In this document: positions 2,847-47,040 of the stretch, piece after piece
How the letters are laid out: every line of letters starts with the position of its first letter
Numbering within the stretch: the first letter of the stretch is position 1
From: Lactobacillus sp.
GTDB taxonomy: Bacteria; Bacillota; Bacilli; Lactobacillales; Lactobacillaceae
Direction: 5' to 3'
Length of the DNA: 64,000 nucleotides
Assembly: GCA_022483245.1 (NCBI GenBank)
Contig: JAKVNR010000001.1
Span: forward strand, 1-64,000
Position numbers and translations under genes: made by a program
The notes under the pieces: generated by a model
Seen by the model: only the letters and a program-made list of their open reading frames with translations
Told to the model about the DNA's origin: nothing
Databases searched by the model: none

Positions 2847-2875
2847 AGTCCTCACTGATAAGCCAGATGAGGACT
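2847..2875 (-). terminator. Terminator or attenuator after the polymerase gene (E1)
   Basis: An 8-bp stem, AGTCCTCA with TGAGGACT, is followed on the minus strand by six T residues. The equivalent in element 2 keeps the stem with compensating changes (GCCCTCA/TGAGGGC). It lies inside the operon and overlaps the 29-nt motif at 2858-2886, so it may separate two transcription units. Confidence 0.65.
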
Positions 2876-2886
2876 GAAAGTAAACC
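2858..2886 (-). promoter_or_regulatory. 29-nt element motif, copy 1 (candidate sigma-specific promoter)
   Basis: On the minus strand this reads GGTTTACTTT, then 11 nt, then TGGCTTAT. Four other sites in the window share the form GGTTYACTTT...CTGGCWWAT with exactly the same spacing and orientation. This copy precedes the DUF4406-like gene and primase. A promoter for the element's sigma-like protein is the favoured reading; an operator is the alternative. Confidence 0.5.
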
Positions 2887-2893
2887 ATGAAGA

Positions 2894-4828
2894 TTAATCT
2901 TTTTTGTAAAAATCACCGACAAAACCAGCAGCGTTCAAAATTAGACCATTTGCCCAATCAGGCACTTCAGTCATAATCTTGACCATGGTAGCGAGTGAAC
3001 GCCCAGTTGGGGCGTCAATTACGGCTTCATCGTGAATATGCATTACCACCGTATTCTCAGTAGCTTCTAACCGCCGCATTGCTTCAGCTAGCAGGTCACG
3101 ACTAGTTGCTTGGACAATGTTTTCTACCAACTTGGCCCCATAGGTTTCAATTCGATCCCATTTTTTCACGGTGTTGATTCCCATGAAGGTAATCGATTCA
3201 GAACCAAAGCGATTGGTGCCGATCTTAGGTTGGGGATAACAAAGAGATCGACCAGAACGTAATTTTAGAAACATACAACCACTGCGGTAGGCGAATTTCA
3301 TACCGTGAGATTCTTGAGGAAGGTGGGTTTTAATGCATTCTTTAGCTGCTTTATCAACGTCCCACCAAAATTGCACAATGTGAGGGCTAGCCTGCCGCCA
3401 CATCTCAACTAGGGGTGGTAATTCATCTTCAGTTAAACCGAGTTTGGTGGCACCCATGGCTTTAAGTGCTCCAATAGAACCGCCATAGCCGAGAGCTAAT
3501 TCAGCAATCTTGCCTTTTTGGCGGAGCTCACCATTAATCCCGTATTTCACGACTGGAACACCAAACATCTGACTAGCGGATGTACAGTAGATATCCTCGT
3601 TATTAGCGAAGGCCTTTTGGCGCCACTGTTCACCAGAAAGCCAGGCGATGACCCGCGCTTCTACAGCTGAAAAGTCAGCAACGTAAAAATGATGACTTTC
3701 ACTTGGAATAAAGGCAGTCCGGATTAACTGGGATAAGACCTCTGGGACCGAATCGTAAAGCATTGCTAGTGCCGTTGTGTTTCCTTGCTTGACCAGCGCA
3801 CGCGCTTCTTCTAAGTCGGGCATTGAATTACGGGGGAGATTTTGAACTTGTACTAATCTGCCGGCCCAACGACCGGTACGGTTAGCACCATAGAATTGCA
3901 GTAAACCATGCACGCGGCCATCTTGGCACATAGCTTTCTGCATAGCCTGATACTTTTTGACACTTGATTTAGATAACAACTGGCGGAGAGCTAAAACTTG
4001 ATGGACCGTGCCGGTAGTGGTTTGTAATAGCTGTGCCACTGATGCTTTGGATAGTGAATTAGTTTTAATACCTTGCTGCTGGAGCCAGTCTTTTAGCTGT
4101 AATGGAGAGTTAGGATTTGCTAGACCTGTTAATTCTTTAGCAGTTTGTAAGTACTGGTCATGGAAGACGTTTTGACATTTGATCGCATTGTTAACCAGTT
4201 GTTGGTCAATCCGGATACCGCGATCATTAATGTCTTGATCCATCCAGTAGTTTTCCCATTCATTCTGTGGGACGGGGAAGCATTCGAGCTTCTGGGTGAT
4301 TTCCATTTCAACCTCGACGTCACGCTGATTGTATTGCTTAAACTGTTGCCATTTATCAGGAGCATGGTAGGGGAAGTTACGAGTGCGATTTTGATTGGCC
4401 TTCGTAGGTTTGCAAGGTGTACAGAAGTAGCGCACAAGCTCTTTACCAGCAGTGATCTTTTGCCGTGGTAACCCTAACACGCTTCCAACATCTCGTAGTG
4501 ATAATGGTAAGCCGAGAGTGGCAGACCAAACGCGAGAACAATGCCAACCAGTTGGCTTTAAGCGGTGACCAACAAAGCGTGACAGACAGACCCGTTCAAA
4601 TTGAGCATTAAAAGCACTCTTAATAATGTTGGGATTATCTAGGGCTTCAATAATCTGTGGTGGAATCTTTTCACCCTGGGTTAAGTCCACCACCTTGACG
4701 GGGCCAAAGTCGGTAGCATAACCAAAGAGCAAAAGCTCAAAATCATCGCTATCAGCGTATCGATAGACGCCAGTCTGATTTAGGTTGGTGCTGGAATAAG
4801 TTTCAATATCAATCGAAAGCTGTTTCAT
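2894..4828 (-). CDS. Phage family A DNA polymerase with 3'-5' exonuclease domain
   Basis: This 644-residue replicative polymerase has a DnaQ-like exonuclease start (SIDIETYSS, residues 5-13), polymerase motif A near residue 383 (VADFSAVEARVIAW) and motif C near residue 600 (HIHDEAVID). This short family A type is typical of Firmicutes phages that also carry DUF2815 and DUF2800 genes. It is almost the same protein as 42764-44698. The DNA for its N-terminal part and for the upstream gene is nearly identical between copies, while the C-terminal part differs, which points to recombination between the two elements. Confidence 0.93.
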   Translation of the reverse strand: MKQLSIDIETYSSTNLNQTGVYRYADSDDFELLLFGYATDFGPVKVVDLTQGEKIPPQIIEALDNPNIIKSAFNAQFERVCLSRFVGHRLKPTGWHCSRVWSATLGLPLSLRDVGSVLGLPRQKITAGKELVRYFCTPCKPTKANQNRTRNFPYHAPDKWQQFKQYNQRDVEVEMEITQKLECFPVPQNEWENYWMDQDINDRGIRIDQQLVNNAIKCQNVFHDQYLQTAKELTGLANPNSPLQLKDWLQQQGIKTNSLSKASVAQLLQTTTGTVHQVLALRQLLSKSSVKKYQAMQKAMCQDGRVHGLLQFYGANRTGRWAGRLVQVQNLPRNSMPDLEEARALVKQGNTTALAMLYDSVPEVLSQLIRTAFIPSESHHFYVADFSAVEARVIAWLSGEQWRQKAFANNEDIYCTSASQMFGVPVVKYGINGELRQKGKIAELALGYGGSIGALKAMGATKLGLTEDELPPLVEMWRQASPHIVQFWWDVDKAAKECIKTHLPQESHGMKFAYRSGCMFLKLRSGRSLCYPQPKIGTNRFGSESITFMGINTVKKWDRIETYGAKLVENIVQATSRDLLAEAMRRLEATENTVVMHIHDEAVIDAPTGRSLATMVKIMTEVPDWANGLILNAAGFVGDFYKKD

Positions 4829-4850
4829 TAGAAATCCTTTCTACAAAAAA

Positions 4851-7077: not shown

Positions 7078-7124
7078 TCTTGCTAGCTCCTTTCATTAAG
7101 TTAGGTGAGCCATTTCTCACACCT

Positions 7125-7153
7125 ATTTGCCAGGAGCAGAAAAAAAGTGAACC
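7125..7153 (-). promoter_or_regulatory. 29-nt element motif, copy 2
   Basis: On the minus strand this reads GGTTCACTTT, then 12 nt, then TGGCAAAT, with the same spacing as the other four copies. It lies 48 nt before the 67-aa gene. Its GGTTCACTTT half also forms one arm of the terminator of the sigma-like gene. Confidence 0.5.
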
Positions 7154-7177: not shown

Positions 7178-7696
7178 TTATTCTTTTTTGTTATAAAAAC
7201 TACGCAATTTTACTAATCCAGCTTTAACATGTCTTCCCACCATGGTTGGGCTAATACTCATTTTCTCAGCAATTTCTTTCTTCTTAAGTCCCTTGCAGTA
7301 ATAGCCGAGGACGGCATTTCGTTGTTTATTAGTTAAAGTTGCCAGGGCAGCTGGTAATTGTACAATCAATTGCTGGCGGTACCGCTGGTCTTCCTTTTCA
7401 ATTAATGAATCCAATAAGTTATCCTTGCTGTAAACAGATGTGATTTCCATGGAACTACGATCCGCTATTGTGTCGATTGCATTAATAGCTGGATCATCCT
7501 GTGAATTAGCGAAGAATTTATCCTGATGCCGTTCGTTTCGATGATCTGAATTATATTGCTTATGATCAAAGTCAAAGGCAACGTTACCCTGTTCCTTGGT
7601 GATAGTGATTACTTGGTTTCCCATGTGCTTGACTCTAACGACTAGCTTTCCATTTTCTTCACCGATTAATTCGTACTCACTGTTACTTTTCTTCAT
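7178..7696 (-). CDS. Sigma-70 region 4-like regulator
   Basis: This 172-residue protein has a C-terminal sigma region 4-like helix-turn-helix: LTNKQRNAVLGYY, then KKKEIAEKMSISPTMVGRHVKAG. The N-terminal half carries a small beta-rich segment (KLVVRVKHMGNQV) conserved in the copy at 47064. The start at 7696 uses GGAGG nine bases upstream, and that site is inside a hairpin. It is transcribed first in the replication block, directly before motif copy 2. It is likely the transcriptional switch of the element. Whether it acts as a sigma factor or an activator cannot be told from sequence. Confidence 0.72.
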   Translation of the reverse strand: MKKSNSEYELIGEENGKLVVRVKHMGNQVITITKEQGNVAFDFDHKQYNSDHRNERHQDKFFANSQDDPAINAIDTIADRSSMEITSVYSKDNLLDSLIEKEDQRYRQQLIVQLPAALATLTNKQRNAVLGYYCKGLKKKEIAEKMSISPTMVGRHVKAGLVKLRSFYNKKE

Positions 7697-7908
7697 TAAT
7701 AAAAGCCTCCGTTCCGGTCTCCCGAAACGAAGGCAAAGGACCAAAAGAGCCACTGGTAGTGTGCTAAGCAGTCCAAAACTCATTCGTTTCGGGACTGCAG
7801 CAAACCTTCCAGTGGCTGGTTGCAGTAAAAGTATTCAATTAAGAAGCATGCTGGAACACCGTTAGCTTGACGATGCATGCTGAATCAATAGATAAAATTC
7901 GCGTTCGC
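7697..7908 (-). promoter_or_regulatory. Structured leader of the sigma-like gene (candidate RNA switch, E1)
   Basis: On the minus strand CCTTCGTTTCGG pairs with CCGGAACGGAGG (7733-7722 with 7717-7706), locking the GGAGG ribosome site. Upstream, CCCGAAACGAA (7793-7783) can pair with TTCGTTTCGGG (7731-7721), which would free it. A further 9-bp pair joins 7817-7809 to 7756-7748, and a 7-bp pair joins 7798-7792 to 7774-7768. GCATGCTG occurs at 7846 and 7875. Element 2 keeps the main pairings with compensating base changes. Confidence 0.6.
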
Positions 7909-8005: not shown

Positions 8006-9286
8006 ATGAACTCGGACAGTTTGGGACAAAATCTGCCCTTTTTTGTCCGAAAGTTGAGCGTGATTGATATGGAATTCTCTGATTTTTTTGACATGCTATG
8101 GACATATTTAGGTAGCCCTGATGAGAGCAAAGATAATAAGGGGCGTCCTAAATTCTTTTGTCATTTAATAGATTTGATCATTCGTACTCCACAGACTGAT
8201 GTGGAGGATGAAAAAGCACAAAGTGGGGACTTGAATCCTTTTGCAGGCAGAGTAGCCGACACCATTAACAAGTACTGTATTGGCTCCAGGCCAATCCCTA
8301 AAAAAGATGCAAAAGAGTTACTTAGCAGAATTAGTAATGGGAAAAAGTTTGTAGACGAAATTAATTTTTCAGCCCCAGGAGCAAGAGAAAGCATTCGAAA
8401 TAAGTTGCGTGAGGAGCAATTTGAAGTAACTACAAGTTCTTTGGGTGAAGTATGCTTCAAAATAATGAAAGCTTTTTTGAATAAGTTCAAAAATGGTGAA
8501 ACCTCTGTAAAAACTAATGATGTCAAAACAAATCAGAATTTCATCGATAACTTGCGTTTACTTCATGATGTCGATATAGAATTCCCTTTATGTGGAGAGA
8601 GCTTGATTAAGAATGGTATTAGCAATGCCATAGCAGGATATGATGTTGTCCATATCTTTCCTGACAACTTAAATGAAAAGGAAAAAGCTAAATTTGCCAA
8701 AATAAAAAAGGCACCTGAAAATTCAGATGCCTTAGAAAATAAAATCCCATTATGTTTAAATTGTGCGAATGTTTATCTCAATAATCCTAACTTAAATGAT
8801 TATCAACGGTTGATTCAGAAAAAACAACATGTTATTAATGAAAAACAAATCGCTCAAGGCCTAAATCAGCTAACTTTAGAAGCAAAATTGACTAAAGTGA
8901 TTCAGGGGCTAAAGAAGGTTAAACCAAACTTAGCGAATTCTGTTATTGATTATGATGCACATACCGTAGAAGAAAAGATAAGTCATGATTATGCCTTACA
9001 AGGGGCTGTTAGTTATTACGTTTCGGGTTATTACAACAAAATCAAAGATCAATTTTCTAATTTGGAAGGTCCAGATTTTTCTTTTGATGAATTAGCTACC
9101 ACCATAAAGTTAGCCTATTTTAAATTTAAGCGTGAGCAACTAGATCAGGAAGAAATATTTAATCACTTGGCTGATTGGATTCTTGCTAAAGAACAATTGC
9201 CTCAGGATTATTCAGAAGCTTCCAGAATTATAGTGGCTTTTTTCGTTCAAAATTGTGAGGTGTTTGAAGTTGAAAATGCCCAGTAA
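8006..9286 (+). CDS. ABC-three-component system protein with degenerate HNH-like zinc region
   Basis: This 426-residue first cargo gene is followed by a small middle component and a DUF2326-type ATPase, the layout of ABC-three-component (ABC-3C) conflict systems. Its middle part resembles an HNH finger: PLCGES, then VVHIFP, then LCLNCAN. The first knuckle has only one Cys and the last His is replaced, so nuclease activity may be lost. The C-terminal part would be the ABC-3C interaction domain. The start is unsure: the ATG at 8006 has a weak ribosome site, and an ATG at 8069 is possible. A hairpin lies within the first codons. Confidence 0.65.
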   Translation: MNSDSLGQNLPFFVRKLSVIDMEFSDFFDMLWTYLGSPDESKDNKGRPKFFCHLIDLIIRTPQTDVEDEKAQSGDLNPFAGRVADTINKYCIGSRPIPKKDAKELLSRISNGKKFVDEINFSAPGARESIRNKLREEQFEVTTSSLGEVCFKIMKAFLNKFKNGETSVKTNDVKTNQNFIDNLRLLHDVDIEFPLCGESLIKNGISNAIAGYDVVHIFPDNLNEKEKAKFAKIKKAPENSDALENKIPLCLNCANVYLNNPNLNDYQRLIQKKQHVINEKQIAQGLNQLTLEAKLTKVIQGLKKVKPNLANSVIDYDAHTVEEKISHDYALQGAVSYYVSGYYNKIKDQFSNLEGPDFSFDELATTIKLAYFKFKREQLDQEEIFNHLADWILAKEQLPQDYSEASRIIVAFFVQNCEVFEVENAQ

Positions 9287-9503
9287 AGTTACTGACTATA
9301 AGGAAAGTACATTAGCAAGTCTTCCTAAAATAATGAAAAAACTAAACGAACAAGCTATGAACCCACAAGATCTTTATAAGAGAACAAGAAGATATTTTGA
9401 TGATGTGGGTGAGTTTGTGGAGGCGTTGGATTGTTTGTTTATATTAAACAGGATTTGCATTGATGAAGAAACAGGTGTGATAAGCAGTGTTAAAACAAAT
9501 TAG
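9270..9503 (+). CDS. ABC-3C middle component
   Basis: This small protein of about 77 residues has the end pattern FVEALDCLFILN...GVISSV, as in ABC-3C middle component family 6. It overlaps both neighbours (17 bp each), so the three genes are translationally coupled. GAGG at 9257-9260 favours the TTG start at 9270; an ATG at 9276 is the alternative. It is thought to bridge the ATPase and the effector protein. Confidence 0.6.
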   Translation: MKMPSKVTDYKESTLASLPKIMKKLNEQAMNPQDLYKRTRRYFDDVGEFVEALDCLFILNRICIDEETGVISSVKTN

Positions 9504-11142
9504 TTGTGATCAGTTTATGGTCGATGGGCACCCACGTGGACCAATTTATTTTAATAAAGGGCTAAATGTGATTTTAGGTGGTCATAGCGGAACTAATTCA
9601 ATTGGGAAATCAACGCTTTTGATGATTATCGACTTTGTATTTGGTGGAACTGATTATGTGAAAAAGGACCTTGATGTCCAGAAAAATGTAGGTCCTCATA
9701 TTATAAAGTTCGCTTTTGAGTTTAATGATAAAAAGTATTATTTTTCAAGGTCAACAGAAGATTTTCAATACATCTATATTTGTAACGAGAAATTCATCCC
9801 TAAAGATAATAAGAAAATAACTGTCGAGGAGTATCTCGATTTTTTGTCTGAGCAATATAATTTGGATTTACCCGGACTAACATTTAGAGGTGCAGTTGGC
9901 CGTTTTATGAGGGTTTATAATCGTCAAACTACAAATGAAAAAAGACCCTTGCAAAATAGCAATCAAGAGCCGGCTAAACAGCAGGTCTATGGATTACTGA
10001 AGTTGTTTGACAAATATTCTCCTATTGAGAATAGAGAAGAGGCAGCAAAAAAAGCCGAGGAAGCTTACACAGCATTTAAAAATGCAGGGACATACAGGTA
10101 TGTTCCAATAGTTGATACAAAAAGACGGTTTAACGAAAATCTAAACAAAATTGAACACCTTAAACAAAAGCTGTCAGACTTACAATCTGAAAATAATGAA
10201 GGCTCATTAAACTTAGATGATATGCAAGCAGCACGTTTAAGAGAAATAAGAAATGATCTATCCCAACTTAGGGAACAGAAGAATATCTACTTGAGTAGAT
10301 TAAATGTCATAAAGTCTAATGAAGAAGCCGGACCTAAAAGGTATCGAAATAATTATCATGAATTAGAGCAATTCTTTCCTGATGTAGATATCCAAAGAAT
10401 TGAAAAAATAGATAAATTCCATCATCAAATTACTAAGTTCCTTAAACTAGAGTTTGAACGAGAGAAAAATACTATTGAAGAAAATGTTGAGGATTTAAGT
10501 CATCATATTTCTCAACTAGTTAATGAAGCACAAAAAATAAAGAATCAACAAGGGCCAAATGTCCAAACTGCTTTACTTAATGAGTATGCTGATAAAAAAG
10601 CAGAATTGAAGCAATTAGAAGACGAAAATAAAAATTATCAGAAGAAGAAAAAGCTACAACAAGACAAGAAAGATCAGCAAGATGCTTTAAAAGCGACTAT
10701 CAATACTGAATTGGCAGAGGTACAGCACTCTTTGAACACCAAAATGGCTAGTTTAAATGTGCAGGTCTGCGGATCTAGTTCATTTCAACCTCCACGAATT
10801 GAATTAAAACCAACAGGATACAATTTTGAGACGATTAATGACCAAGGTACAGGTACATCATTCAAGGGATTAATTATTTTCGATCAAGCTTGTCTTGACT
10901 TAACACATCTACCATTTTTTGTTCATGATTCACTACTATTTTCAAATATTGAGATTGATCGTAGAAATAGAATTATTGAAATGTATGCTCAAGAAACTAA
11001 GCAGATATTTATTTCGATTGATAGTATTGAAGTATTATCAGAAAAAGCACAAGAGATTATTAGAGAGAATACAGTTCTGACACTTGAACGTGGTGGTAAA
11101 GAACTGTTTGGGAGATCATGGAATGAGCAAGCAACCAAATAA
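9487..11142 (+). CDS. DUF2326-type SMC/RecN-like ATPase of the ABC-3C system
   Basis: This 551-residue protein has an unusual Walker A loop (GGHSGTNSIGKST, about residues 31-43), a long coiled-coil middle rich in K, E and Q (about 200-410), and a C-terminal Walker B region (GLIIFDQA) followed by HDSLLFSNIE. These are features of DUF2326 ATPases, RecN/SMC relatives found in ABC-3C systems. The GTG start follows AGGTG and lies within the previous gene. It is inferred to sense invading DNA or replication intermediates and to activate the partner protein. Confidence 0.75.
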   Translation: MLKQISCDQFMVDGHPRGPIYFNKGLNVILGGHSGTNSIGKSTLLMIIDFVFGGTDYVKKDLDVQKNVGPHIIKFAFEFNDKKYYFSRSTEDFQYIYICNEKFIPKDNKKITVEEYLDFLSEQYNLDLPGLTFRGAVGRFMRVYNRQTTNEKRPLQNSNQEPAKQQVYGLLKLFDKYSPIENREEAAKKAEEAYTAFKNAGTYRYVPIVDTKRRFNENLNKIEHLKQKLSDLQSENNEGSLNLDDMQAARLREIRNDLSQLREQKNIYLSRLNVIKSNEEAGPKRYRNNYHELEQFFPDVDIQRIEKIDKFHHQITKFLKLEFEREKNTIEENVEDLSHHISQLVNEAQKIKNQQGPNVQTALLNEYADKKAELKQLEDENKNYQKKKKLQQDKKDQQDALKATINTELAEVQHSLNTKMASLNVQVCGSSSFQPPRIELKPTGYNFETINDQGTGTSFKGLIIFDQACLDLTHLPFFVHDSLLFSNIEIDRRNRIIEMYAQETKQIFISIDSIEVLSEKAQEIIRENTVLTLERGGKELFGRSWNEQATK

Positions 11143-11368
11143 CTTAAAAATTAAATATAAGGTTAGTTACAAGAAATTGTGGAAATTGTTAATTGATCGG
11201 GGATTACAGAAAAAAGATTTGCAAACTGAATGCGATATTAGCGCTGCTTCCGTTGCTAAGTTAGGAAAAGATGCTAATGTTACTACTGATCTTTTAATGA
11301 AGATATGCACTGGCTTAGACTGCAATCTTAATGACATTTGTGAAACTGTACCAATTAACGAAGAATAG
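11123..11368 (+). CDS. XRE-family regulator (controller-type) ahead of the type III system
   Basis: This protein of about 81 residues is almost all Cro/CI-type helix-turn-helix (KKDLQTECDISAASVAKLG). The start at 11123 follows GGGAGA and overlaps the ATPase gene end. A clear relative, at the matching position before a methyltransferase, is in element 2 (51905). Small XRE proteins before restriction-modification genes often delay restriction until methylation is in place; that role is likely here. Confidence 0.8.
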   Translation: MSKQPNNLKIKYKVSYKKLWKLLIDRGLQKKDLQTECDISAASVAKLGKDANVTTDLLMKICTGLDCNLNDICETVPINEE

Positions 11369-11378
11369 GAGAAATTTG

Positions 11379-13328: not shown

Positions 13329-13331
13329 GCC

Positions 13332-35254: not shown

Positions 35255-35326
35255 CTTCTGTACCTCCTTGTTTGATCACTGTATACATCACTCTAAAGGG
35301 TACAGATAGCAAGGAACTTCGACGAT

Positions 35327-38208: not shown

Positions 38209-39560
38209 GCCACAACACTTCCTTTCAGGTTGGCTTTCACCGCATTGATTAACGCTAGCTGGGTTTTATCTTTACGTTTCAAGGCGGCCAGAATGTTTTC
38301 GTCAATGGTTCCTTCGGTGATGATGTGGTGGATAACTACTGGCTGACGCTGTCCTTGTCGCCAGAGCCGAGCGTTGGTTTGCTGGTAAAGCTCCAGGCTC
38401 CAAGTCAATCCATACCAAATCAAGGTGGCACCACCAGCCTGCAGGTTAAGACCATGACCAGCAGAAGCGGGGTGGATCAAAGCTAAAGGAATCTTACCGG
38501 CATTCCAGTCCTGAATGTCACGGGGTGTTTTGATCTCACGAACCTTGAAACGACTTTTAATCTGGATTAGATCATGTTTGAACCAGTAAGCTACCAAGAC
38601 AGGTTTACCATTAGCAGCTTCAACCAAATCTTCAAGGGCATCAAGTTTTCGCTGGTGAATTTGAACAATCTGCTGCTGGTCGTCGTAGACACAACCATTT
38701 GCCATCTGGCAAAGTTTATTCGATAAACTGGCTGCGTTGAGGGCATCGATTTGTTTACCCTGGGTTGAAACTACTAGCTGGGCATTAAGCTCATCATAGA
38801 TTGCCTGCTCACTATTACTCATTTTTACCGGAACGGTGTTCATAGTTAATGGTGGCAGATTCAAGTAGTCCTTAGACTTCATAGAAATGGTGATATCATC
38901 AATGGCGCGGTAGATACTTTGTTCAGCACCGGGCTTAGGTTTGTAGGTAAAAACTTGATACATGTTTCGCTTGTCAGGGTCAAAGTAGTTCATTCGGTAA
39001 GATGAGATGAAACGGCCGAGTCGTTGGCCCATGTCTAGTACGCGGAACTCTGCCCACAAATCCATCAAGCCATTAGACGACGGTGTGCCTGTTAAGCCAA
39101 CTACGCGCTTAATCAGTGGTCGCACTCGTTTGAGGGCTTTGAAGCGTTGCGAGCGGTAAGACTTAAAACTGGAGAGTTCATCGATCACCAACATGTCGTA
39201 GTCAAAGGAAGTACCAGAGGATTCAATTAGCCATTTTAAGTTTTCCCGATTAATGATATAAATGTCGACATCTTGCTGCAGTGCTTTGATCCTTTGAAAC
39301 TTAGAACCAGTGACGACTGAATAGTTAAGGCCTTTTAAGTGGTCCCATTTTTCAATTTCTTCTGGCCAGGTTTGTTTAGCCACACGCAGTGGAGCGACAA
39401 CTAATACCCGTTGAACTTTCCCCTGCTGAATAAGTTGTTTAATAGCAGTTAGGGTAATGACGCTTTTACCTAGTCCCATATCAAGCAAGATTGCTGCCAC
39501 AGGATGATCCAGAATAAACTGAGTTGCGTATTGTTGGTATTCATGCGGTTTGTATTGCAT
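38205..39560 (-). CDS. Phage SNF2-type helicase
   Basis: The protein has 451 residues. Walker A LLDMGLGKS is at 25-33, DELSSFK near 123, GLTGTPSSNGL near 155, and QTNARLWRQGQ with HHIITEGTIDE at the end. This is the short SNF2 helicase that goes with VRR-NUC and P4-type primase genes in Firmicutes phages. It likely helps replication or recombination. Confidence 0.92.
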   Translation of the reverse strand: MQYKPHEYQQYATQFILDHPVAAILLDMGLGKSVITLTAIKQLIQQGKVQRVLVVAPLRVAKQTWPEEIEKWDHLKGLNYSVVTGSKFQRIKALQQDVDIYIINRENLKWLIESSGTSFDYDMLVIDELSSFKSYRSQRFKALKRVRPLIKRVVGLTGTPSSNGLMDLWAEFRVLDMGQRLGRFISSYRMNYFDPDKRNMYQVFTYKPKPGAEQSIYRAIDDITISMKSKDYLNLPPLTMNTVPVKMSNSEQAIYDELNAQLVVSTQGKQIDALNAASLSNKLCQMANGCVYDDQQQIVQIHQRKLDALEDLVEAANGKPVLVAYWFKHDLIQIKSRFKVREIKTPRDIQDWNAGKIPLALIHPASAGHGLNLQAGGATLIWYGLTWSLELYQQTNARLWRQGQRQPVVIHHIITEGTIDENILAALKRKDKTQLALINAVKANLKGSVVA

Positions 39561-39822
39561 CTAGCATTCCTCCAATCTGATCAAACTGATCGCAAACAAA
39601 AACCTGGTAACCAAGTTGTTTTAACTGGTTGAGTCTTTGCACTTGTAACGGGCGGGGATGTTTACCAGGAGCCTTCATCTCCACAAAGCCCATGTGACCA
39701 TCAGGCAGGAGGACCAATCGATCAGGTACTCCGGCCATCGATGGGGAGGTGAACTTTAGGCAAAGACCTCCGCGTTGGTGGGTAGCTTTGACAAAAGTAG
39801 TTTCGATTTGTTTTTCTAACAT
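39541..39822 (-). CDS. VRR-NUC domain nuclease
   Basis: This protein of about 93 residues has GVPDRLVLLPDG and FVEMKAPGK, the PD-(D/E)xK set of VRR-NUC. The ATG at 39822 follows AGGAAGGA; a longer frame begins at 39987 but lacks conserved residues and would enter the iteron region. It overlaps the helicase gene by 20 bp, so the two probably act together. Confidence 0.88.
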   Translation of the reverse strand: MLEKQIETTFVKATHQRGGLCLKFTSPSMAGVPDRLVLLPDGHMGFVEMKAPGKHPRPLQVQRLNQLKQLGYQVFVCDQFDQIGGMLDAIQTA

Positions 39823-39872
39823 TTGTAAAATCCTTCCTAAACGTTGATATATCGGTGATTCGTCAGGGTTAA

Positions 39873-40037
39873 TGACGGTCGTGACAGTTGTTTTACTACT
39901 CTTCTCTATACTCTTTTTTTCTATTTTTATTCCTATATACAAGTAATGTAAAAGAGTGTCACGACTGTCATTAGGGTTGGTAAACACTGATGTATCAAGC
40001 TTTTAGAGTTTTAAAGTGTGACAGTCGATGACAGTCA
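39873..40037. other. Iteron-like repeats downstream of the primase gene, candidate origin (E2)
   Basis: Repeats TGACGGTCGTGACAGT (39873), GTGTCACGACTGTCA (39956) and TGACAGTCGATGACAGTCA (about 40019) flank an AT-rich pyrimidine tract at 39890-39945. Direct and inverted copies of GTGACAGTC are shared with the window start in element 1, although the sequence between them has diverged. This fits an origin used by the adjacent primase. Confidence 0.45.
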
Positions 40038-42290
40038 ACTGAGGAATTCGTCGGCATCAACTTTTAATCGCAGTCCCTCGATGAAACGACCGTTTTGTTT
40101 ATGTTGACGTTGAAAGCCAGCATTTTTGAGGGCGGTGTAAAAGTCAGTCGTGCTGCGGATATATTCACCGATGCCTTGGCAGTATTCGCGATACTTTTGA
40201 TAGAGGTCACCGGACTTTTGCTCATATTCTGGGTTTAATTCGCATTTTTCGTTGAGAAAATGTCCGAGCCAATCATTGTCAGCATGGTAAGCATTGACCG
40301 CTTTTTCGACTGCCGCCGGAGTAGTTAATCGGTAATTTTGCTGAATGGTTCGCTGTGCGCCTTCAATGATCCACTGCAAGACTGCCGGCCCAGCTTTTTC
40401 GGTTAGGTACTGGGCGTAATTCTTAATATCATTGCGTTTAGCGATCGTAGCTTTAAAGGGGATCACAATTAACCGTCGCCAGATTCCTTCATCATTACCA
40501 CCTACGTGGGGCAGGTAATTGGTGTATAACACGATGGTGTGGCTGGGCGTAAAGGAGAAAGGTTTCATGTATTTCTTTTCGGCATAGATTTCATCAGTTG
40601 AACAAAGTTGCTTGACGATGGAAGTGTTCAGGCGTTTACCTTCTTCCAATTCCGCGGAGATGATTAGTCGCTTGCCTTTGACTTCGGCCATCTCTGGTTT
40701 GACGTTTCGCCGGACACCAGTGGTCAAGGCATCAGCTGAGAGGTGACCGGTATAAGTGCCGAGTACATTAGCGATGGTGTTCCAGAAGGTTGACTTACCA
40801 TTCCTCCCGCTGCCGTAAGCAATAATCAGAGCTTCCAGGTACACCTGACCGATCGCCACCAGTCCCACAATTTCTTGGACGTAATTAATCAACGCTTGGT
40901 CACCACAGAAGAAAGTAGTGAGTGCTTCTTGCCAGAGTGAAGCTCCTTGATTACCAGGAATACAGGATGTGGATTTGGTGATTAATTCATCAGCTTGAAT
41001 TTCCTGTTGACCGTGCATCCCTTTCTTTAAATTGAAAGGTCCGTTGGGCGTGTTCAACAAAAACGGATCAGCATCAAAATCATTAATCTCTTTGACGAGC
41101 TTTGGTCGAGAATTAGTTAAGATCCCGTTAATACCACGGGTGCTGCGTTCCTTGAGAATGAAGGCTTCGTAAGCTTTAGCATTTTCGTAATTCTTGAACG
41201 CTGCCTGTTGTTCATCGTTAAAAGTCCGACTAGCTTTAGTTTTACCCATTGCTTGCAAAGCGGATGTCACACCATTTTGCTGAATCTTCTTATAACTATT
41301 AGTGACACGAAGCTGAGCATCAGTTAATTGTTTATCGGTAAAACGTTGGACTTCGCCGAGAGCTAAAGGTTCCGATTCTTGCCAGACCTTACCGTCGAAC
41401 CACATAAAACCTGATTGATTGGTGTAGCAGACCCGCTCTTTACAGTTGTTTACAAAGACATAAGATTCCCCAGTGTCCGAGTAGTCAGCTGGCTGTAAGT
41501 CATCATTGGGCTGATTGTATTTTTCGGGCGGAATATAATCTTTTTGATTAGCCATGCGTTGACCAAATTTGGTGGCACTATGCCAGATGTTTTTTAATTC
41601 CTGCTTGCTTAGTGGTGGATCACATTTAGCAGCTTCTTCCTGAAATGCCTGACGAGCTTCAGCAGTATTGCCAAGACGCATAATGATGCGACCGGCAAAA
41701 TGCGAAAGGGTAGCATTACGTTTGCCTTCATGGATTGATCCGATGTTTTGCTGAGCAAAGTAACGCTGGGCCATCATAAATTTGTCCACGGCTTGTGATC
41801 CTTCATGCCAGATGGCTTTAGTACTAGGCACACCAAAGACAAACCGGGCCGCATCAAGCGCATTGTCATCAAAATAGGGAAAGTATTCTTGAATTTCGTG
41901 TTTTAGTTCGGCGTAGGTTTTAGCATCCGTAATCTCAGTAATCGGAAAGTAGACGTGAAACTTAGGCCGGGGTGTTTTATGGTGCTTGGCCTTCATATTG
42001 TTTCGCGAGAAAGTAATGGCGTAGGAAACATCATCGAAATAGTTAGCAATGTTTGCAGGTTTGATCCAAGTAGTCGGATCGTCAGAATGATCGTTATCGC
42101 AGTCCATAATTAGGCAATCGGCTTTGATGAAGTTGGCAATGGTGCGTTGGTTATTTTGAAATTGACCGCAGACATGGTCATAGCGGACAGCTTGTTCTAA
42201 TTCCTGTGCATTAGTAATAGCTTGTTGATGAGGATAGATCGTATTGCTAGCCTGACCGGAATTAACTGCCGTCGATAAAGTAAAATGCAT
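40035..42290 (-). CDS. Phage/plasmid primase-helicase (P4/D5 family), E2 copy
   Basis: The 751-residue paralogue of the E1 enzyme has Walker A GSGRNGKST near 497. Its middle and C-terminal parts are close to the E1 copy, with scattered changes in residues 1-250 and 330-440. It starts 3 bp after the DUF4406-like gene. The upstream part of the element is complete here, so this copy can be tied to VRR-NUC and SNF2 helicase genes in one block. Confidence 0.9.
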   Translation of the reverse strand: MHFTLSTAVNSGQASNTIYPHQQAITNAQELEQAVRYDHVCGQFQNNQRTIANFIKADCLIMDCDNDHSDDPTTWIKPANIANYFDDVSYAITFSRNNMKAKHHKTPRPKFHVYFPITEITDAKTYAELKHEIQEYFPYFDDNALDAARFVFGVPSTKAIWHEGSQAVDKFMMAQRYFAQQNIGSIHEGKRNATLSHFAGRIIMRLGNTAEARQAFQEEAAKCDPPLSKQELKNIWHSATKFGQRMANQKDYIPPEKYNQPNDDLQPADYSDTGESYVFVNNCKERVCYTNQSGFMWFDGKVWQESEPLALGEVQRFTDKQLTDAQLRVTNSYKKIQQNGVTSALQAMGKTKASRTFNDEQQAAFKNYENAKAYEAFILKERSTRGINGILTNSRPKLVKEINDFDADPFLLNTPNGPFNLKKGMHGQQEIQADELITKSTSCIPGNQGASLWQEALTTFFCGDQALINYVQEIVGLVAIGQVYLEALIIAYGSGRNGKSTFWNTIANVLGTYTGHLSADALTTGVRRNVKPEMAEVKGKRLIISAELEEGKRLNTSIVKQLCSTDEIYAEKKYMKPFSFTPSHTIVLYTNYLPHVGGNDEGIWRRLIVIPFKATIAKRNDIKNYAQYLTEKAGPAVLQWIIEGAQRTIQQNYRLTTPAAVEKAVNAYHADNDWLGHFLNEKCELNPEYEQKSGDLYQKYREYCQGIGEYIRSTTDFYTALKNAGFQRQHKQNGRFIEGLRLKVDADEFLS

Positions 42291-42292
42291 CT

Positions 42293-42679
42293 TTAGTTGG
42301 CCTCCATTTCATTATTAAAGTAGCGGATATTTTTATTTTTACGTTTGGCAAAGCGGATGAAGTAGCACATATCGTGCGTCGGTTTACCAAATGACCAGGC
42401 TTCGGCGCATTTAGTCAGTAGCACAATGTTAATAAAAGTGGCTACTTGAAATTCCTGTGAATGGTGCAGGTTAATAAATTGAGGTAGGTAAAGCTGTGGA
42501 CAAACGGGGATGCCACCATGTTGATAGATAAAACGGCAGTAAGAGCGCACTGTCATGGTACTTTTAGCATCGCTCTTTACTACTTCTGTAAACGGCGCAA
42601 TGACAAAGATCATTGGTCGGTAGTGTGGATTCAGTTTATCTTGGCGCAGCTTGGTAATTGCTATGGTTGCTTCTGACAT
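42293..42679 (-). CDS. DUF4406/DUF7768-type protein, E2 copy
   Basis: This 128-residue protein has the same key stretches as the E1 copy (FVIAPF, GGIPVCPQLYLPQF, KCAEAWSFG). The start at 42679 is chosen for the AAGGA site ten bases before it. It follows motif copy 4 and the polymerase terminator. Confidence 0.7.
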   Translation of the reverse strand: MSEATIAITKLRQDKLNPHYRPMIFVIAPFTEVVKSDAKSTMTVRSYCRFIYQHGGIPVCPQLYLPQFINLHHSQEFQVATFINIVLLTKCAEAWSFGKPTHDMCYFIRFAKRKNKNIRYFNNEMEAN

Positions 42680-42717
42680 AGATTCAGATCCTTTCATTAA
42701 ATTAGAGAACTAAAAAA

Positions 42718-42744
42718 GCCCTCACCAATAAGCCAGATGAGGGC
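42718..42744 (-). terminator. Terminator after the polymerase gene (E2)
   Basis: GCCCTCA pairs with TGAGGGC and is followed by six T residues on the minus strand. Compared with E1 the stem keeps pairing through changed bases, which supports it as a real structure. Confidence 0.65.
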
Positions 42745-42756
42745 AGAAAGTAAACC
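42728..42756 (-). promoter_or_regulatory. 29-nt element motif, copy 4
   Basis: On the minus strand this reads GGTTTACTTT...TGGCTTAT with the standard spacing, ahead of the DUF4406-like gene and primase of element 2. Confidence 0.5.
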
Positions 42757-42763: not shown

Positions 42764-44698
42764 TTAATCTTTTTTGTAAAAGTCGCTAACAAAACCAGCA
42801 GCGTTGAGGATTAAGCCATTGGCCCAGTCTGGAACTTCGGTCATGAGCTGAACCATGGTGTCAAGTGACCGATTGGAAGGGGCGTCAATTACGGCTTCGT
42901 CATGAATATGCATTACGGCCGGGTTGCCGGCTGCTTCTAAACGGCGCATGGCTTCAGCTAAGAGATCACGACTAGTGGCCTGGACGATGTTTTCGACTAA
43001 CTTAGCACCATAGGTTTCAATTCGTGACCATTTCTTGACGGTGTTAATGCCCATGAAAGTAATGGACTCACTACCAAAGCGGTTAATGCCGATCTTAGGT
43101 TGGGGATAACAAAGAGATCGACCAGAACGTAATTTTAGAAACATACAACCACTGCGGTAGGCGAATTTCATACCGTGAGATTCTTGAGGAAGGTGGGTTT
43201 TAATACAAGCTTTAGCCGCTTTATCAACGTCCCACCAAAACTGCACAATGTGAGGACTAGCAATACGCCACATTTGAACCAGTGGCGGTAATTCATCATC
43301 AGTTAAGCCAAGCTTAGTGGCACCCATGGCTTTGAGGGCACCAATGGAACCGCCATAGCCCAGGGCGAGTTCGGCAATTTTACCCTTTTGACGGAGTTCA
43401 CCATTGATGCCATGTTTGACGACCGGGACACCAAACATCTGACTCGCGGATGCACAATAGATATCTTCATTCTTGGCAAAGGATTCTTGTCGCCATTTTT
43501 CATTAGATAGCCAAGCAATCACCCGTGCTTCAACCGCTGAGAAGTCAGCCACGTAGAAATGATGATTTTTGCTAGGGATAAAAGCAGTGCGAATCAATTG
43601 TGATAAGACGTCTGGCACTGAATCATAAAGCATTGCAAGTGCTGGTACGTTGCCTTGCTTAACTAATTCGCGAGCTTCTTCGAGGTCTGGCATTGAATTA
43701 CGGGGCAGATTTTGTACTTGTACAAGGCGACCAGCCCAGCGACCGGTACGGTTTGCACCATAAAATTGTAAAAGACCATGGACACGACCATCTTGGCACA
43801 TAGCTTTCTGCATAGCCTGGTACTTTTTGACACTTGATTTGGAGAGTAACTGACGGAGAGCTAATACTTGATGAACCGTGCCGGTAGTTGTTTGTAATAG
43901 CTGTGCCACTGATGCTTTGGATAGTGAATTAGTTTTAATACCTTGCTGCTGGAGCCAGTCTTTTAGCTGTAATGGAGAGTTAGGATTTGCTAGACCTGTT
44001 AATTCTTTAGCAGTCTGTAAGTACTGGTCATGGAAGACGTTTTGACATTTGATCGCATTGTTAACCAGTTGTTGGTCAATCCGGATACCGCGATCATTAA
44101 TGTCTTGATCCATCCAGTAGTTTTCCCATTCATTCTGTGGGACGGGGAAGCATTCGAGCTTCTGGGTGATTTCCATTTCAACCTCGACGTCACGCTGATT
44201 GTATTGCTTAAACTGTTGCCATTTATCAGGAGCATGGTAGGGGAAGTTACGAGTGCGATTTTGATTGGCCTTCGTAGGTTTGCAAGGTGTACAGAAGTAG
44301 CGCACAAGCTCTTTACCAGCAGTGATCTTTTGCCGTGGTAACCCTAACACGCTTCCAACATCTCGTAGTGATAATGGCAAGCCGAGAGTGGCAGACCAAA
44401 CGCGAGAACAATGCCAACCAGTTGGCTTTAAGCGGTGACCAACAAAGCATGACAGACAGACCCGTTCAAATTGAGCATTAAAAGCACTCTTAATAATGTT
44501 GGGATTATCTAGGGCTTCAATAATCTGTGGTGGAATCTTTTCACCCTGGGTTAAGTCCACCACCTTGACGGGGCCAAAGTCGGTAGCATAACCAAAGAGC
44601 AAAAGCTCAAAATCATCGCTATCAGCGTATCGATAGACGCCAGTCTGATTTAGGTTGGTGCTGGAATAAGTTTCAATATCAATCGAAAGCTGTTTCAT
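42764..44698 (-). CDS. Phage family A DNA polymerase, E2 copy
   Basis: The 644-residue protein matches the E1 copy in length. The DNA coding for residues 1 to about 270 differs at only a few bases, whereas the rest differs at many silent and some coding sites. Exonuclease residues (DIETYSS) and polymerase motifs (ADFSAVEAR, HIHDEAVID) are intact. Confidence 0.93.
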   Translation of the reverse strand: MKQLSIDIETYSSTNLNQTGVYRYADSDDFELLLFGYATDFGPVKVVDLTQGEKIPPQIIEALDNPNIIKSAFNAQFERVCLSCFVGHRLKPTGWHCSRVWSATLGLPLSLRDVGSVLGLPRQKITAGKELVRYFCTPCKPTKANQNRTRNFPYHAPDKWQQFKQYNQRDVEVEMEITQKLECFPVPQNEWENYWMDQDINDRGIRIDQQLVNNAIKCQNVFHDQYLQTAKELTGLANPNSPLQLKDWLQQQGIKTNSLSKASVAQLLQTTTGTVHQVLALRQLLSKSSVKKYQAMQKAMCQDGRVHGLLQFYGANRTGRWAGRLVQVQNLPRNSMPDLEEARELVKQGNVPALAMLYDSVPDVLSQLIRTAFIPSKNHHFYVADFSAVEARVIAWLSNEKWRQESFAKNEDIYCASASQMFGVPVVKHGINGELRQKGKIAELALGYGGSIGALKAMGATKLGLTDDELPPLVQMWRIASPHIVQFWWDVDKAAKACIKTHLPQESHGMKFAYRSGCMFLKLRSGRSLCYPQPKIGINRFGSESITFMGINTVKKWSRIETYGAKLVENIVQATSRDLLAEAMRRLEAAGNPAVMHIHDEAVIDAPSNRSLDTMVQLMTEVPDWANGLILNAAGFVSDFYKKD

Positions 44699-44720
44699 TA
44701 GAAATCCTTTCTACAAAAAA

Positions 44721-44744
44721 TGGGTAGTCAAAGTCGACTGCCCA
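44721..44744 (-). terminator. Terminator between DUF2815 and polymerase genes (E2)
   Basis: This is identical to the E1 structure at 4851-4874: a 9-bp stem, 6-nt loop and minus-strand T run. Confidence 0.65.
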
Positions 44745-44753
44745 TCTTTTGGT

Positions 44754-45305
44754 TTAAGCTAAGAAATCATCGTCATTGCTACCATCAATCGCTGTGAAGT
44801 CATCGCTGGCACTAGCATGTCCACCTAGTGGTTCTCCATCACGGATCTTTTGGATGTTACCCAGGCCACAGGCAATTCCACGGTTACCGTTGGTGTTAAA
44901 AGCATAGAAGTTAATCGATACTCGGGCATAGCAGCCACTGTAAACTTCATCACGATCAAGGATTGGTTGGACATGCTTATCCACAATCTGTGGTGCCGTG
45001 ATCGAATTAGCATTGATAAAGTAACTATCTTGGTAGGCGGCATCATCACGCTCCACATCCCCATCTCGAAGAGGTAGCTTGAGAGTGGCCTTATTAGGCT
45101 TCTTACCACCAAACTTTCCAATTCCTTCCTGAATGGCAGCATCGATAGCTTTTTCGATGGCAGTGACTGTCTTTTGATCGGACTTGGGGATGATTAGACT
45201 AACTGAATACTTTTCCTTACCACCATTGATAGACTTAGGTTCCCAGATGTTGGCATAAGAGAGACGAGTGTTGATACCGGTAACGACCTTAGTTTGTTGT
45301 GACAT
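44754..45305 (-). CDS. DUF2815 family phage protein, E2 copy
   Basis: This copy appears identical in protein sequence to the E1 protein at 4884-5435 and lies in the nearly identical DNA tract shared by the elements. AGGAGG sits ten bases before the ATG. Probable single-stranded DNA-binding role, from the family. Confidence 0.82.
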   Translation of the reverse strand: MSQQTKVVTGINTRLSYANIWEPKSINGGKEKYSVSLIIPKSDQKTVTAIEKAIDAAIQEGIGKFGGKKPNKATLKLPLRDGDVERDDAAYQDSYFINANSITAPQIVDKHVQPILDRDEVYSGCYARVSINFYAFNTNGNRGIACGLGNIQKIRDGEPLGGHASASDDFTAIDGSNDDDFLA

Positions 45306-45306
45306 A

Positions 45307-46446
45307 TTATTTTTCCTCCTTAAATTCATCTTGTGGGTTAGATTTGCTAATACTCTGACGTTGATCGGAATTTGGCACCAAGGTTGGCTTACCCGCAGGT
45401 TTTACAATTTCTTGACTAAACAGTTCAGTGAATTTCTTCTTACCGAGCTGTTTTTCTAGTTTTGTAATTGGCAGTAGCTTCTTTTGATAAATATCATGGT
45501 AGCCGTGTTCTTCAGCAATTTTTGCTATAGCTGCTTCATCTTTATAATGACGAACAGATCGTCCTTCAACGATTTTGTAGCCGGGCCACTGTTTCCCATG
45601 GTTAATGGCTAAGTTGGCAGCATAGTCTTTAACTTCGTGAGCCCAGCGGTTTAGATCATCAATGTGCTCTAGTACTTCAGTAACCTCACTATCTGTTAGC
45701 AAGTTCGGTGACCGTAGTTGAAAGCGGGTGAGCTTGTGATGATAGTCAAAACGTGCTCGCAGTACCGCATTACAAGTGGAAAATTGACACCAAGGACCAT
45801 AATGGACAGTACCTTTGCCAGTAAAGGCGAGTTCGGCCTTTGCTTTTAATTCGGTATTGGCCCAATGCATTAGTTCTTTAGCATTAATAGTCCAGGTACT
45901 GATGTTGGCCATGCGGGGTTGAAAGATCGTTGTTTCGACTTCATCGACGTTGTAAAGGCTGCCGAACATCTCAAGGGCTCCGATCGCGTAAAGCTTCATT
46001 TGTGGGTTATTCTTAGCTTCAACACGGACACCTTTACCATATTTGAAGTCGATGATATGGAGCAGGTGGTCAGAAACAATCACACAGTCACCAGTGCCGA
46101 AGCCATCTGGGACATATTTGGAGAAGTCCAACTTCTGTTCAACGCTGATGGTGGCATCCTTAGCATACCGTTTAGCCTTTTGGTATTGCTCCAAGACATA
46201 ACTGGCGTAGTCGTCAGTCAGGCTTTCCATTTCATCCGATTGGTAATCAGAAACAGGACGTTTGAATTGGTCACCGAGCAGTCGATGGATCTTGTATTCA
46301 CCCAAGGCGTGGGCAGCAGTTCCTTCGGCGGCTGCACTTGAAGTGGAGTGCGGGAAGTATTGTTCTAAACGTGGCAGCGGTGGAGCACTTAACCAGCGAT
46401 TGGCGCTGGAAGCCGATAGTAAGGCATGGTGTTTAGGTGAACTCAT
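45307..46446 (-). CDS. DUF2800 family RecB/Cas4-like nuclease, E2 copy
   Basis: The 379-residue paralogue of the E1 gene keeps GTGDCVIV and IIDFKYGKG. The last 20 codons fall in the nearly identical tract; the rest has diverged. It overlaps the upstream small gene by 4 bp. Confidence 0.82.
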   Translation of the reverse strand: MSSPKHHALLSASSANRWLSAPPLPRLEQYFPHSTSSAAAEGTAAHALGEYKIHRLLGDQFKRPVSDYQSDEMESLTDDYASYVLEQYQKAKRYAKDATISVEQKLDFSKYVPDGFGTGDCVIVSDHLLHIIDFKYGKGVRVEAKNNPQMKLYAIGALEMFGSLYNVDEVETTIFQPRMANISTWTINAKELMHWANTELKAKAELAFTGKGTVHYGPWCQFSTCNAVLRARFDYHHKLTRFQLRSPNLLTDSEVTEVLEHIDDLNRWAHEVKDYAANLAINHGKQWPGYKIVEGRSVRHYKDEAAIAKIAEEHGYHDIYQKKLLPITKLEKQLGKKKFTELFSQEIVKPAGKPTLVPNSDQRQSISKSNPQDEFKEEK

Positions 46447-46778
46447 TGTCCAATCCCCTCTGCGCTGTAATAGAGATCCTCGTAATCCTTAGAATTGACA
46501 TCTGACAGCTTGTCAGCACCGAACTTGTGAAGGAGGTCCTTGACCTGGTTGGTATAACCTTCTTGGCACCTCTTAGCCAGCAGTTGACGGATCGTGACCT
46601 TATCTTGAACCGGATTACGTTTCGGCTTTTCATTAACATCTTGATTATTGTTGCCGCCGGATAACTGCTGACGAACGGCCTGAATGGTTTTAAGACCTTC
46701 CACCGCCTCTTCAGCCATGCGATGATAGAATTCTTCGCGTTCTTTTATTTGCAGATCCAAATCATTCATTGTACTCAT
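46443..46778 (-). CDS. Small conserved element protein, N-terminal coiled coil, E2 copy
   Basis: This 111-residue protein has a different N-terminal helix from the E1 copy (LQIKEREEFYHRMAEEAVE) but the same C-terminal block (VTIRQLLAKR, VKDLLHKFGADKLSDV). This pattern of a conserved tail and free head suggests the tail is the functional part. Confidence 0.6.
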   Translation of the reverse strand: MSTMNDLDLQIKEREEFYHRMAEEAVEGLKTIQAVRQQLSGGNNNQDVNEKPKRNPVQDKVTIRQLLAKRCQEGYTNQVKDLLHKFGADKLSDVNSKDYEDLYYSAEGIGQ

Positions 46779-46968
46779 GTGAAGCCTCCTTTACCTTATT
46801 AATCTGTAGCTGCTGAACATCCTTGCCGGGCGCAATCACCATCAAGTGATGCGGCTTGCCAAGCAGTAGCCGGAGCAATCGTTCCCGGATAGTGATGTTG
46901 CGCATAATGACAACACCTTCTTGGTGAGGGTGCTTAGTGACCTTGATTGATACCTTATTTGCCATCAT
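46762..46968 (-). CDS. Small conserved element protein, E2 copy
   Basis: This protein of about 68 residues begins MMANKVSIKVTKHP and keeps LLLGKPHHLMVIAPG. Two adjacent ATG codons (46968, 46965) are possible; AAAGGAG precedes both. It overlaps the downstream small gene by 17 bp. Confidence 0.6.
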   Translation of the reverse strand: MMANKVSIKVTKHPHQEGVVIMRNITIRERLLRLLLGKPHHLMVIAPGKDVQQLQINKVKEASHEYNE

Positions 46969-47011
46969 CTGGTCTCCTTTCGTTAGGTTTCGTGAGTTAC
47001 TCCTCACATCT

Positions 47012-47040
47012 ATTAGCCAGAAACAGCAAAAAAGTGAACC
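47012..47040 (-). promoter_or_regulatory. 29-nt element motif, copy 5
   Basis: On the minus strand this reads GGTTCACTTT...TGGCTAAT with the standard spacing. It lies before the small-protein/DUF2800 operon of element 2, as copy 2 does in element 1. Confidence 0.5.

Follow-up and report, generated by a model that had tools for sequence, protein, structure and literature searches.

Some phages and prophages encode sigma factors or positive control factors that act at promoters of their own, such as the sigma factors of SPO1-like phages, and the ArpU/RinA-type late activators are small regulators of Firmicutes prophages. The lambda Q protein uses a DNA site at the late promoter. In the SigO-RsoA system one protein carries a single sigma DNA-binding region and its partner supplies the other, and the mobile element Tn916 encodes a sigma-like Orf7. 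The general kind of system considered here, i.e., an element-encoded sigma-like regulator with a cognate promoter, is already known. We have analyzed a stretch of 64,000 nucleotides of Lactobacillus sp. (assembly GCA_022483245.1, contig JAKVNR010000001.1, positions 1 to 64,000), hereafter called the window, which holds two prophage-like elements (elements 1 and 2). Both encode a small sigma-like protein in which only region 4 is recognized, and both carry a two-box motif that may be its promoter. Small region-4-only sigma-like proteins seem to be common in mobile elements of these bacteria, and to our knowledge their targets are mostly unknown. The motif is a concrete candidate target, with a defined site, three copies per element and natural variants of sequence and spacing, and a defined site makes it possible to test directly whether region-4-only proteins can redirect RNA polymerase without region 2.

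One source lists Xpf of PBSX with both sigma2 and sigma4, and it also lists the split sigma factor SigO-RsoA of Bacillus subtilis (PMC10141391). Like PBSX Xpf and the factors of SPO1-like phages, the elements combine a sigma-like protein with a private, non-sigma-A promoter-like motif at their operons. Unlike Xpf, the protein matches region 4 only, and unlike the phage factors in general, the sites serve replication and recombination rather than the late head operon and a structured leader precedes the gene. The protein resembles the SigO-RsoA system in having one sigma DNA-binding region, so that it would need a partner, but no region-2 partner was recognized among the element proteins scanned. 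For Tn916, another source describes a regulatory end with Porf7, internal terminators and the cis-acting RNA antiterminator canT, and it also names lambda-type Q antitermination (PMC11658703). The likeness to Tn916, drawn by description only, lies in internal terminators and an RNA element within a Gram-positive mobile element; Tn916 combines a main promoter with antitermination, whereas here three sites head three units. The protein would be similar to lambda Q if it acted, as a phage protein, at a promoter-proximal DNA site with terminators involved, but the matches to the Pfam family do not reach the cut-off, and the boxes do not form a conserved direct repeat. It shares with ArpU/RinA the condition of a small regulator in a Firmicutes prophage; unlike in those systems, the element has a separate activator-like protein (phrog_248, phrog_36), and the best PHROG of the sigma-like protein is phrog_11138, of unknown function. 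What is unusual is the region-4-only protein itself, the nesting of the putative promoter sites in terminators, the coordination of replication with recombination that they would provide and the covarying leader RNA. In titles and abstract openings of the literature on phage sigma factors, satellites, ArpU/RinA, Tn916 orf7, YvrI/RsoA and Xpf, neither the motif nor the leader was described.

Motif sites and their distribution

The earlier note had reported five copies of the motif GGTTYACTTT...CTGGCWWAT, and all five are exact, with zero mismatches, on the minus strand. A scan of the window allowing up to three mismatches gave six matches, i.e., these five and one on the plus strand with three mismatches, while shuffled windows gave a mean of 0.08 matches and none of 100 reached six. 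When the whole 1.56-Mb genome was scanned with up to two mismatches, six sites appeared, all exact, and none further. The sixth site is located outside the window at contig positions 1543268-1543296 (minus strand), some 12 kb short of the contig end. Element 1 extends across contig base 1, which is also the first base of the window; the sixth site lies ahead of the element 1 recombinase operon, which gives three sites per element. We have named them sig (behind the sigma-like gene), pol (behind the family A DNA polymerase gene, PolA) and rec (before a small open reading frame (ORF) and two large serine recombinases). Their placement agrees with that claimed before: they head the replication operon, the DUF7768-primase genes and the recombinase operon, respectively.

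The two halves had been placed 22 nt apart, but the measured gap is 10 nt, and the second half begins 20 nt after the start of the first; a value of 22 nt is obtained when the GG of GGTTTAC and that of GGCTTAT are taken as reference points. Conservation also extends further than first described, and what the three site classes have in common is GGTTYACTTT, a weaker C-Y-T in the spacer (motif positions 15-17), CTGGCWWAT and a following NRGTG. With the relatives included, the motif lengthens to GGTTYACTTT-N10-CTGGCWWATNRGTG. The same spacing is kept in related elements: the gap is 10 nt in 59 of 60 distinct cores, a set in which many loci were recruited by the exact pattern and two cores are chance-like, while the bases of the spacer vary. 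The only gap of 9 nt, i.e., 1 nt shorter, occurs in one element of the genus Bombilactobacillus (L217:1224, G155), behind a sigma-like protein that is 42-44% identical; G155 belongs to the genus group of the Bombilactobacillus genome G105.

The misfit to the usual consensus also held, as none of the element 2 sites, all on the minus strand, appears in the minus-strand sigma-70 consensus list obtained by scanning element 2. These sites lack the TTGACA and TATAAT-like hexamers, 16-18 nt apart and with A2 and T6 in the second one, that define a sigma-A promoter, and the hexamer in the -10 place is mostly GCWWAT. Group-3 (SigB-like) promoters have GTTTAA about 15 nt before GGGTAT, and GTTTAC-N15-GGCTTAT resembles them, by eye only. 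A matrix scan at more than 8 bits found the five sites in the window, one in the preceding 20 kb and no others. In particular, the late head operon of the window has no site above 8 bits, and the idea that the promoter class extends to the late head genes was rejected for this reason.

Most sites are located at, inside or just after terminators (all the following features are on the minus strand). The sig site reads GGTTCACTTTTTTTCTGCTCCTGGCAAAT in element 1 (7125-7153), after the sigma-like gene and ahead of the replication operon, and GGTTCACTTTTTTGCTGTTTCTGGCTAAT in element 2 (47012-47040). Each is directly followed by a GTGAG/CTCAC hairpin, at 7105-7120, where it forms the predicted transcript 5′ end, and at 46992-47007. 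In element 2 a terminator-like hairpin stands after the sigma-like gene (47028-47059), and its 3′ arm GGTTCAC with the T run is the first half of the sig site. Throughout the sig class the predicted stem starts at motif position 30-34 (25/25 distinct sites, the start position having no control of its own), and 20 of the 25 stems fold better than 95% of base shuffles.

The pol site of element 1, GGTTTACTTTCAGTCCTCATCTGGCTTAT followed by CAGTG (2858-2886), lies between PolA and the DUF7768-primase genes, and that of element 2 reads GGTTTACTTTCTGCCCTCATCTGGCTTAT (42728-42756). Folding places the second half of both in the loop of a terminator-like hairpin, AGTCCTCA/TGAGGACT with a T run in element 1 (2847-2875) and GCCCTCA/TGAGGGC with T6 in element 2 (42718-42744), the latter not in the consensus terminator scan because its loop is too long. 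In 14 of 15 distinct pol stretches the loop of a hairpin of -9.4 kcal/mol or lower contains the second box, and a T run follows; this count has no shuffle control. The rec site of element 2, GGTTTACTTTTCCGCTTGTTCTGGCTTAT (27193-27221), is followed by the Shine-Dalgarno sequence (SD) CAGTGGAGG and ATG, and just before it stands the terminator-like AGCTGGCAG/CTGTCAGCT with a T run (27237-27258). Rec sites lie 17-18 nt ahead of the start codon, mostly directly behind a terminator, and thus there is little room for another promoter.

The contexts change more than the sites. Rec sites persist downstream of two types of terminator and of a third stretch in which none is evident, and sig sites persist where they overlap a terminator, where their first box is in the loop (L123, by eye) and where no terminator is evident (clade B, described below, by eye). 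We also considered the site as a component of the terminator, and rejected this by eye, given the clade B sig sites without an evident terminator and the differently shaped hairpin of L123.

The co-occurrence of the sites with the sigma-like gene was examined in loci recruited by protein and not by motif, although the scoring matrix was partly built from these loci. Among 46 loci recruited with PolA, 27 carry the sigma-like gene, and the sig site is present in all of them (27/27) and a scorable pol site in 26, the exception being L131. By contrast, 18 of the 19 PolA loci without the sigma-like gene have no site; the lone exception, L152, keeps a pol site and its contig starts near a partial DUF2800 gene. 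The rec site is found 312-316 nt upstream in 38 of 38 loci recruited with recombinase A, and the gap is 10 nt in all the sites of both sets. Two scans with the sigma-like protein yielded 28 loci, four of which were scored, most of the others being on contigs of the PolA set. The sites are also kept in the diverged relatives L123/L151, L170 and L131 (sigma-like protein 46-49% and 27% identical, PolA 72-78%). A stretch of Bombilactobacillus mellifer (L195) has a sigma-like gene (69%) and an exact sig site beside a single-stranded DNA (ssDNA)-binding protein, and in the 20 kb examined there PolA, the recombinases and the other reference proteins were not found.

The motif is rare elsewhere. With up to one mismatch it occurs in 8 of 301 Lactobacillaceae genomes, against 5 for a reversed control pattern, and the exact motif occurs in 6; a sigma-like gene, of one clade or the other, is present in five of these. 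The 84,980 GTDB genomes gave 34 stretches with the exact motif, a count that may leave out records of, or very near, the genome of the window: 23 are from Lactobacillaceae, of which 22 lie beside element genes, and 11 are from other taxa, where none of the DNA stretches examined has element genes. About 15 chance matches would be expected in such a set (hand estimate, equal base frequencies). A wider host regulon was rejected by the whole-genome, 301-genome and 84,980-genome scans. IMG/VR holds 71 stretches with the exact pattern. The phage records contain only distant relatives of PolA, 2 of 1664 matching records having 60-80% identity and the rest less than 60%, and no plasmid relative was found at megablast level with the 7.5 kb searched. 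Besides, isolated sites or the leader persist in L152, L200, L210, L256 and L193, which represent elements that are incomplete or decayed, or stretches of DNA.

The sigma-like protein and its leader RNA

That both elements encode a sigma-like protein, as previously noted, was borne out by matches to Pfam Sigma70_r4_2 (E 9.6e-7 and 9.2e-10 in the two proteins), which cover region 4 only. The gene of element 1 spans 7178-7696 (minus strand); the ORF list gives 7178-7783, but an SD-ATG follows the leader at 7696. The protein of element 2 (47064-47582, minus strand) has 172 aa, with region 4 at residues 113-166. Region 4 is well modelled (residues 111-170, pLDDT 82-93 by block), and sigma domains head the Foldseek results. 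In the model the N-terminal part forms a small beta unit, with pLDDT below 50 at 47-64 and 74-87, and it could conceivably contain a short, divergent region 2. A second clade of sigma-like proteins (clade B), 23-26% identical to those of the window, replaces the window-type protein in otherwise similar elements. The clade B sig site is CGTTTACTTT-N10-RTGGCCTRTMAGTG, and AGTTTACTTT-N10-ATGGCCTTTAAGTG in G048. An order-wide profile search matched the sigma-like protein in 79 of 395 genomes at E 0.001, nearly all of these matches being weak and to the region-4 part (best E 8e-9 beyond the known ones), so that many may be other helix-turn-helix (HTH) proteins.

All 32 sigma-like genes collected are preceded by a conserved leader, roughly 170 nt long or longer, which reaches down to the SD; it is located at 7721-7882 in element 1 and at 47607-47777 in element 2 (both minus strand). 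Once near-identical sequences were removed 22 leaders were left, and the 5′ part of that of L104 did not align. The structure named for these leaders comprises the helices P1, P2, P6 and P5 and the pseudoknot P4. It pairs in 90.1% of cells against 86.1 in shuffles, 16 of its pairs are changed on both sides against 9.1, and its covariation score is 0.225 against 0.157; none of 500 shuffles reached any of these three values. Its further pair types are not above shuffles (164/500), and P2 pairs in only 66% of cells. A version slid by +3 has 36 doubly changed cells, nearly as many as the 40 of the proposed structure, but it pairs in only 47% of cells; as the proposed structure was read from one member of the set, comparisons with slid controls are biased towards it. 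A further helix, P3, is 92.6% paired, with five of its seven pairs changed on both sides and a covariation score reached by none of 500 shuffles; its further pair types are not above shuffles either (495/500). P3 uses the same strand as P4, and thus both would be mutually exclusive.

A covariance model built without the element 1 type found that type at 56 bits (7721-7825); the element 2 leader, which was in the training set, scored 124 bits (47607-47720). Such a model holds both sequence and structure, so a match also means sequence similarity. By this model ten of the 301 family genomes have a leader. A sigma-like gene from one clade or the other is also present in nine of them, and in G261, the tenth, the leader is followed by no more than a short remnant, recognized by eye. 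Rfam gave no match in the window at the gathering score and none up to E 5 in 47400-47880, which spans the element 2 leader. The leader is a candidate new riboregulator, which would couple a signal to the excision and replication of lactobacillus elements that carry defence genes. Base pairing between site and leader, plausible by eye at CAGTGG, was dropped without a count, the sites being unchanged where the leader differs (L124 and L104).

A proposed promoter class and its alternatives

The comparisons described above lend good support to a private promoter, and we consider it reasonably probable that the motif represents a class of non-sigma-A promoters switched on by the region-4 protein and restricted to a single family of prophage-like elements of Lactobacillaceae, which bear head genes and are tail-less. 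We infer the promoter activity, the start site, the control by the sigma-like protein and the role of the leader as follows. The first box, (G/C)GTTYA(C/T)TTT, would occupy the -35 place, and the second, mostly TGGCWWAT with NRGTG, the -10 place, the spacer between them measuring about 17 nt. Transcription would start at or just after RGTG; with RGTG as the start, the first box falls near -35 and GCWWAT near -10, separated by 17 nt. The three copies would produce three separate transcripts, i.e., those of the replication operon, of the genes from primase to helicase and of the recombinase operon, which the terminators at, in or before most sites would keep separate. In the pol sites, where the second box is in the terminator loop, a transcript started at RGTG would not include the 5′ arm and would thus escape the terminator.

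The region-4 protein would turn these promoters on either as a new -35 reader for RNA polymerase or together with a partner that reads the second box. That box might be read by sigma-A once its -35 reader is changed, or by a partner such as that of the SigO-RsoA system. The leader RNA before the sigma-like gene probably gates its synthesis. A fuller version can be put forward only tentatively, and we regard it as possible though doubtful: a region-4-only factor, alone or with a partner, would make the host RNA polymerase read a promoter that sigma-A cannot read, and a new pseudoknotted leader with a choice between two helices would gate this factor, so that replication and excision would be released together by a single decision at the RNA level.

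The private promoter class proposed in the earlier note stands in part: the co-occurrence, the placement at operons and the rarity of the motif agree with it, and the unmatched region 2 and the presence of the same sites with two clades speak against a simple sigma factor. Several observations weigh against the reading that we favour. Region 2 has no Pfam match in the proteins of both elements or in their relatives, and no partner that could supply it was recognized among the element proteins scanned, the short ORFs not having been modelled; p408 and p7234 have no Pfam match. The whole-protein model is weak (mean pLDDT 69, pTM 0.43), and Foldseek gives no match at E 0.001 or below, the best being 5e-3. 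Pol and rec sites do not differ in kind between the two sigma-like clades, in spite of the low identity of the proteins. The loci with a sigma-like gene are all kin (PolA at least 72% identical), so that the counts are not independent and the co-occurrence may partly reflect shared ancestry. The pol site of L131 is recognizable but too diverged to score. In G045 pol and rec sites are retained while no sigma-like gene can be detected; its DUF2800 gene and the part expected before it are incomplete, and L152 is a similar case. Lactobacillus corticis (L193) has a perfect rec-type site and none of the reference genes within the 8 kb examined. In addition, a weak sigma-70 consensus match on the minus strand (27305-27276) lies upstream of the terminator that precedes the rec site, and in rec sites the SD would sit almost at the 5′ end of the transcript.

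Some of these points would also fit a reader other than the sigma-like protein, i.e., the sites could be promoters or operators of a host factor or of some other protein of the element, such as the small one that the next gene encodes. The two very different clades and the sites kept in G045 are consistent with this, as is the phrog_7234-like small ORF that follows the sigma-like gene in all 27 PolA loci carrying that gene. However, the rarity of the motif in the 301 Lactobacillaceae genomes makes a host regulon unlikely, and in the B. mellifer stretch only the sigma-like and ssDNA-binding proteins are recognized beside the site. This case, together with the co-occurrence, points to the sigma-like protein, and another reader appears rather improbable. 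The terminators at or beside most sites also suggest a lambda Q-type antiterminator, which would load at these promoters and carry the polymerase through downstream terminators. Weak matches to Phage_antitermQ (PF06530) were indeed found in three relatives, and the element 1 protein has a weak match to phrog_79 (E 0.00099). The PF06530 matches (E 0.0068-0.041) reach only 14-17 bits against a cut-off of 26, and so the protein does not belong to the Q family by this measure. Moreover, the pol terminator overlaps a site and is not placed downstream of one, and the genes behind the rec site are the recombinases, which stand at the element's end. A direct-repeat operator GGTTTAC/GGCTTAT was rejected as not conserved in the sig sites (mean 2.75/7 matches, against 4.7 in pol and 5.0 in rec sites). 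We hence judge the Q-type explanation quite unlikely.

The motif could instead act in RNA, as a site in the nascent transcript for antitermination, processing or translation control. Its second half is in a terminator loop in pol sites and directly ahead of the SD in rec sites, and a cis-acting RNA antiterminator, canT, is described for Tn916 (PMC11658703). Nevertheless, by eye and by single-sequence folds the three site classes have no visible structure in common, and a rigid 10-nt gap with a varying spacer suits one face of DNA better than an unstructured RNA, so that we give this explanation very little probability. Finally, the sites are similar and lie within one element, as would be expected if a single intergenic module had recently been duplicated and its copies shared no function; but their flanks and spacers differ between classes and the boxes and the spacing persist in diverged relatives, which makes such an origin hardly credible.

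Gene order and neighbouring genes

Element 2 encodes on the minus strand, in this order, the sigma-like protein, two small proteins (phrog_7234 and phrog_408), DUF2800, an Enc34-type ssDNA-binding protein, which we take to be the DUF2815 protein of the earlier note, and the family A polymerase. There follow DUF7768, a D5-type primase, a VRR-NUC-like protein, an SNF2 helicase, a late-activator-like protein, HNH, the small terminase, a methylase, an amidoligase-like protein, the large terminase, portal, protease, capsid, connector, head completion, holin and lysin, and then the recombinases. The replication operon behind the sig site, from the small phrog_7234 ORF to the family A DNA polymerase, spans 42764-47007. 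The genes behind the pol site, from DUF7768 and the D5-type primase-helicase through VRR-NUC (below the Pfam cut-off) to the SNF2 helicase, span 38205-42697. The first gene after the rec site is a small ORF of 79 aa (26935-27174), whose element 1 homologue (L007:7912-8199) matches phrog_2996; it is followed by the large serine recombinases A (25244-26905) and B (23674-25251). All these genes are on the minus strand.

The head and packaging genes (27646-37095, minus strand) run straight into the holin and the lysin, and none of the element 2 proteins scanned matched a tail family. The capsid-forming phage satellites (cf-PICI) have head and packaging genes without tail genes. Element 2 has this gene content, and its layout suggests a satellite-like element or a tail-less prophage. 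A protein matching phage transcriptional activators (phrog_248 and phrog_36) is encoded at 37741-38208 (minus strand), ahead of the HNH and terminase genes. There is no motif site at this place, and the late genes thus probably use another promoter.

The opposite strand carries cargo with defence-like genes at 8006-19474 and 49281-59267 (plus strand), which include Lamassu-type LmuA/LmuB-like, type III restriction-modification, Hachiman HamB-like helicase and GmrSD-type genes. A nicotinate phosphoribosyltransferase gene (21525-22955, plus strand) is located between the element 1 cargo and the element 2 recombinases, so that the two elements may have inserted separately, close to one another.

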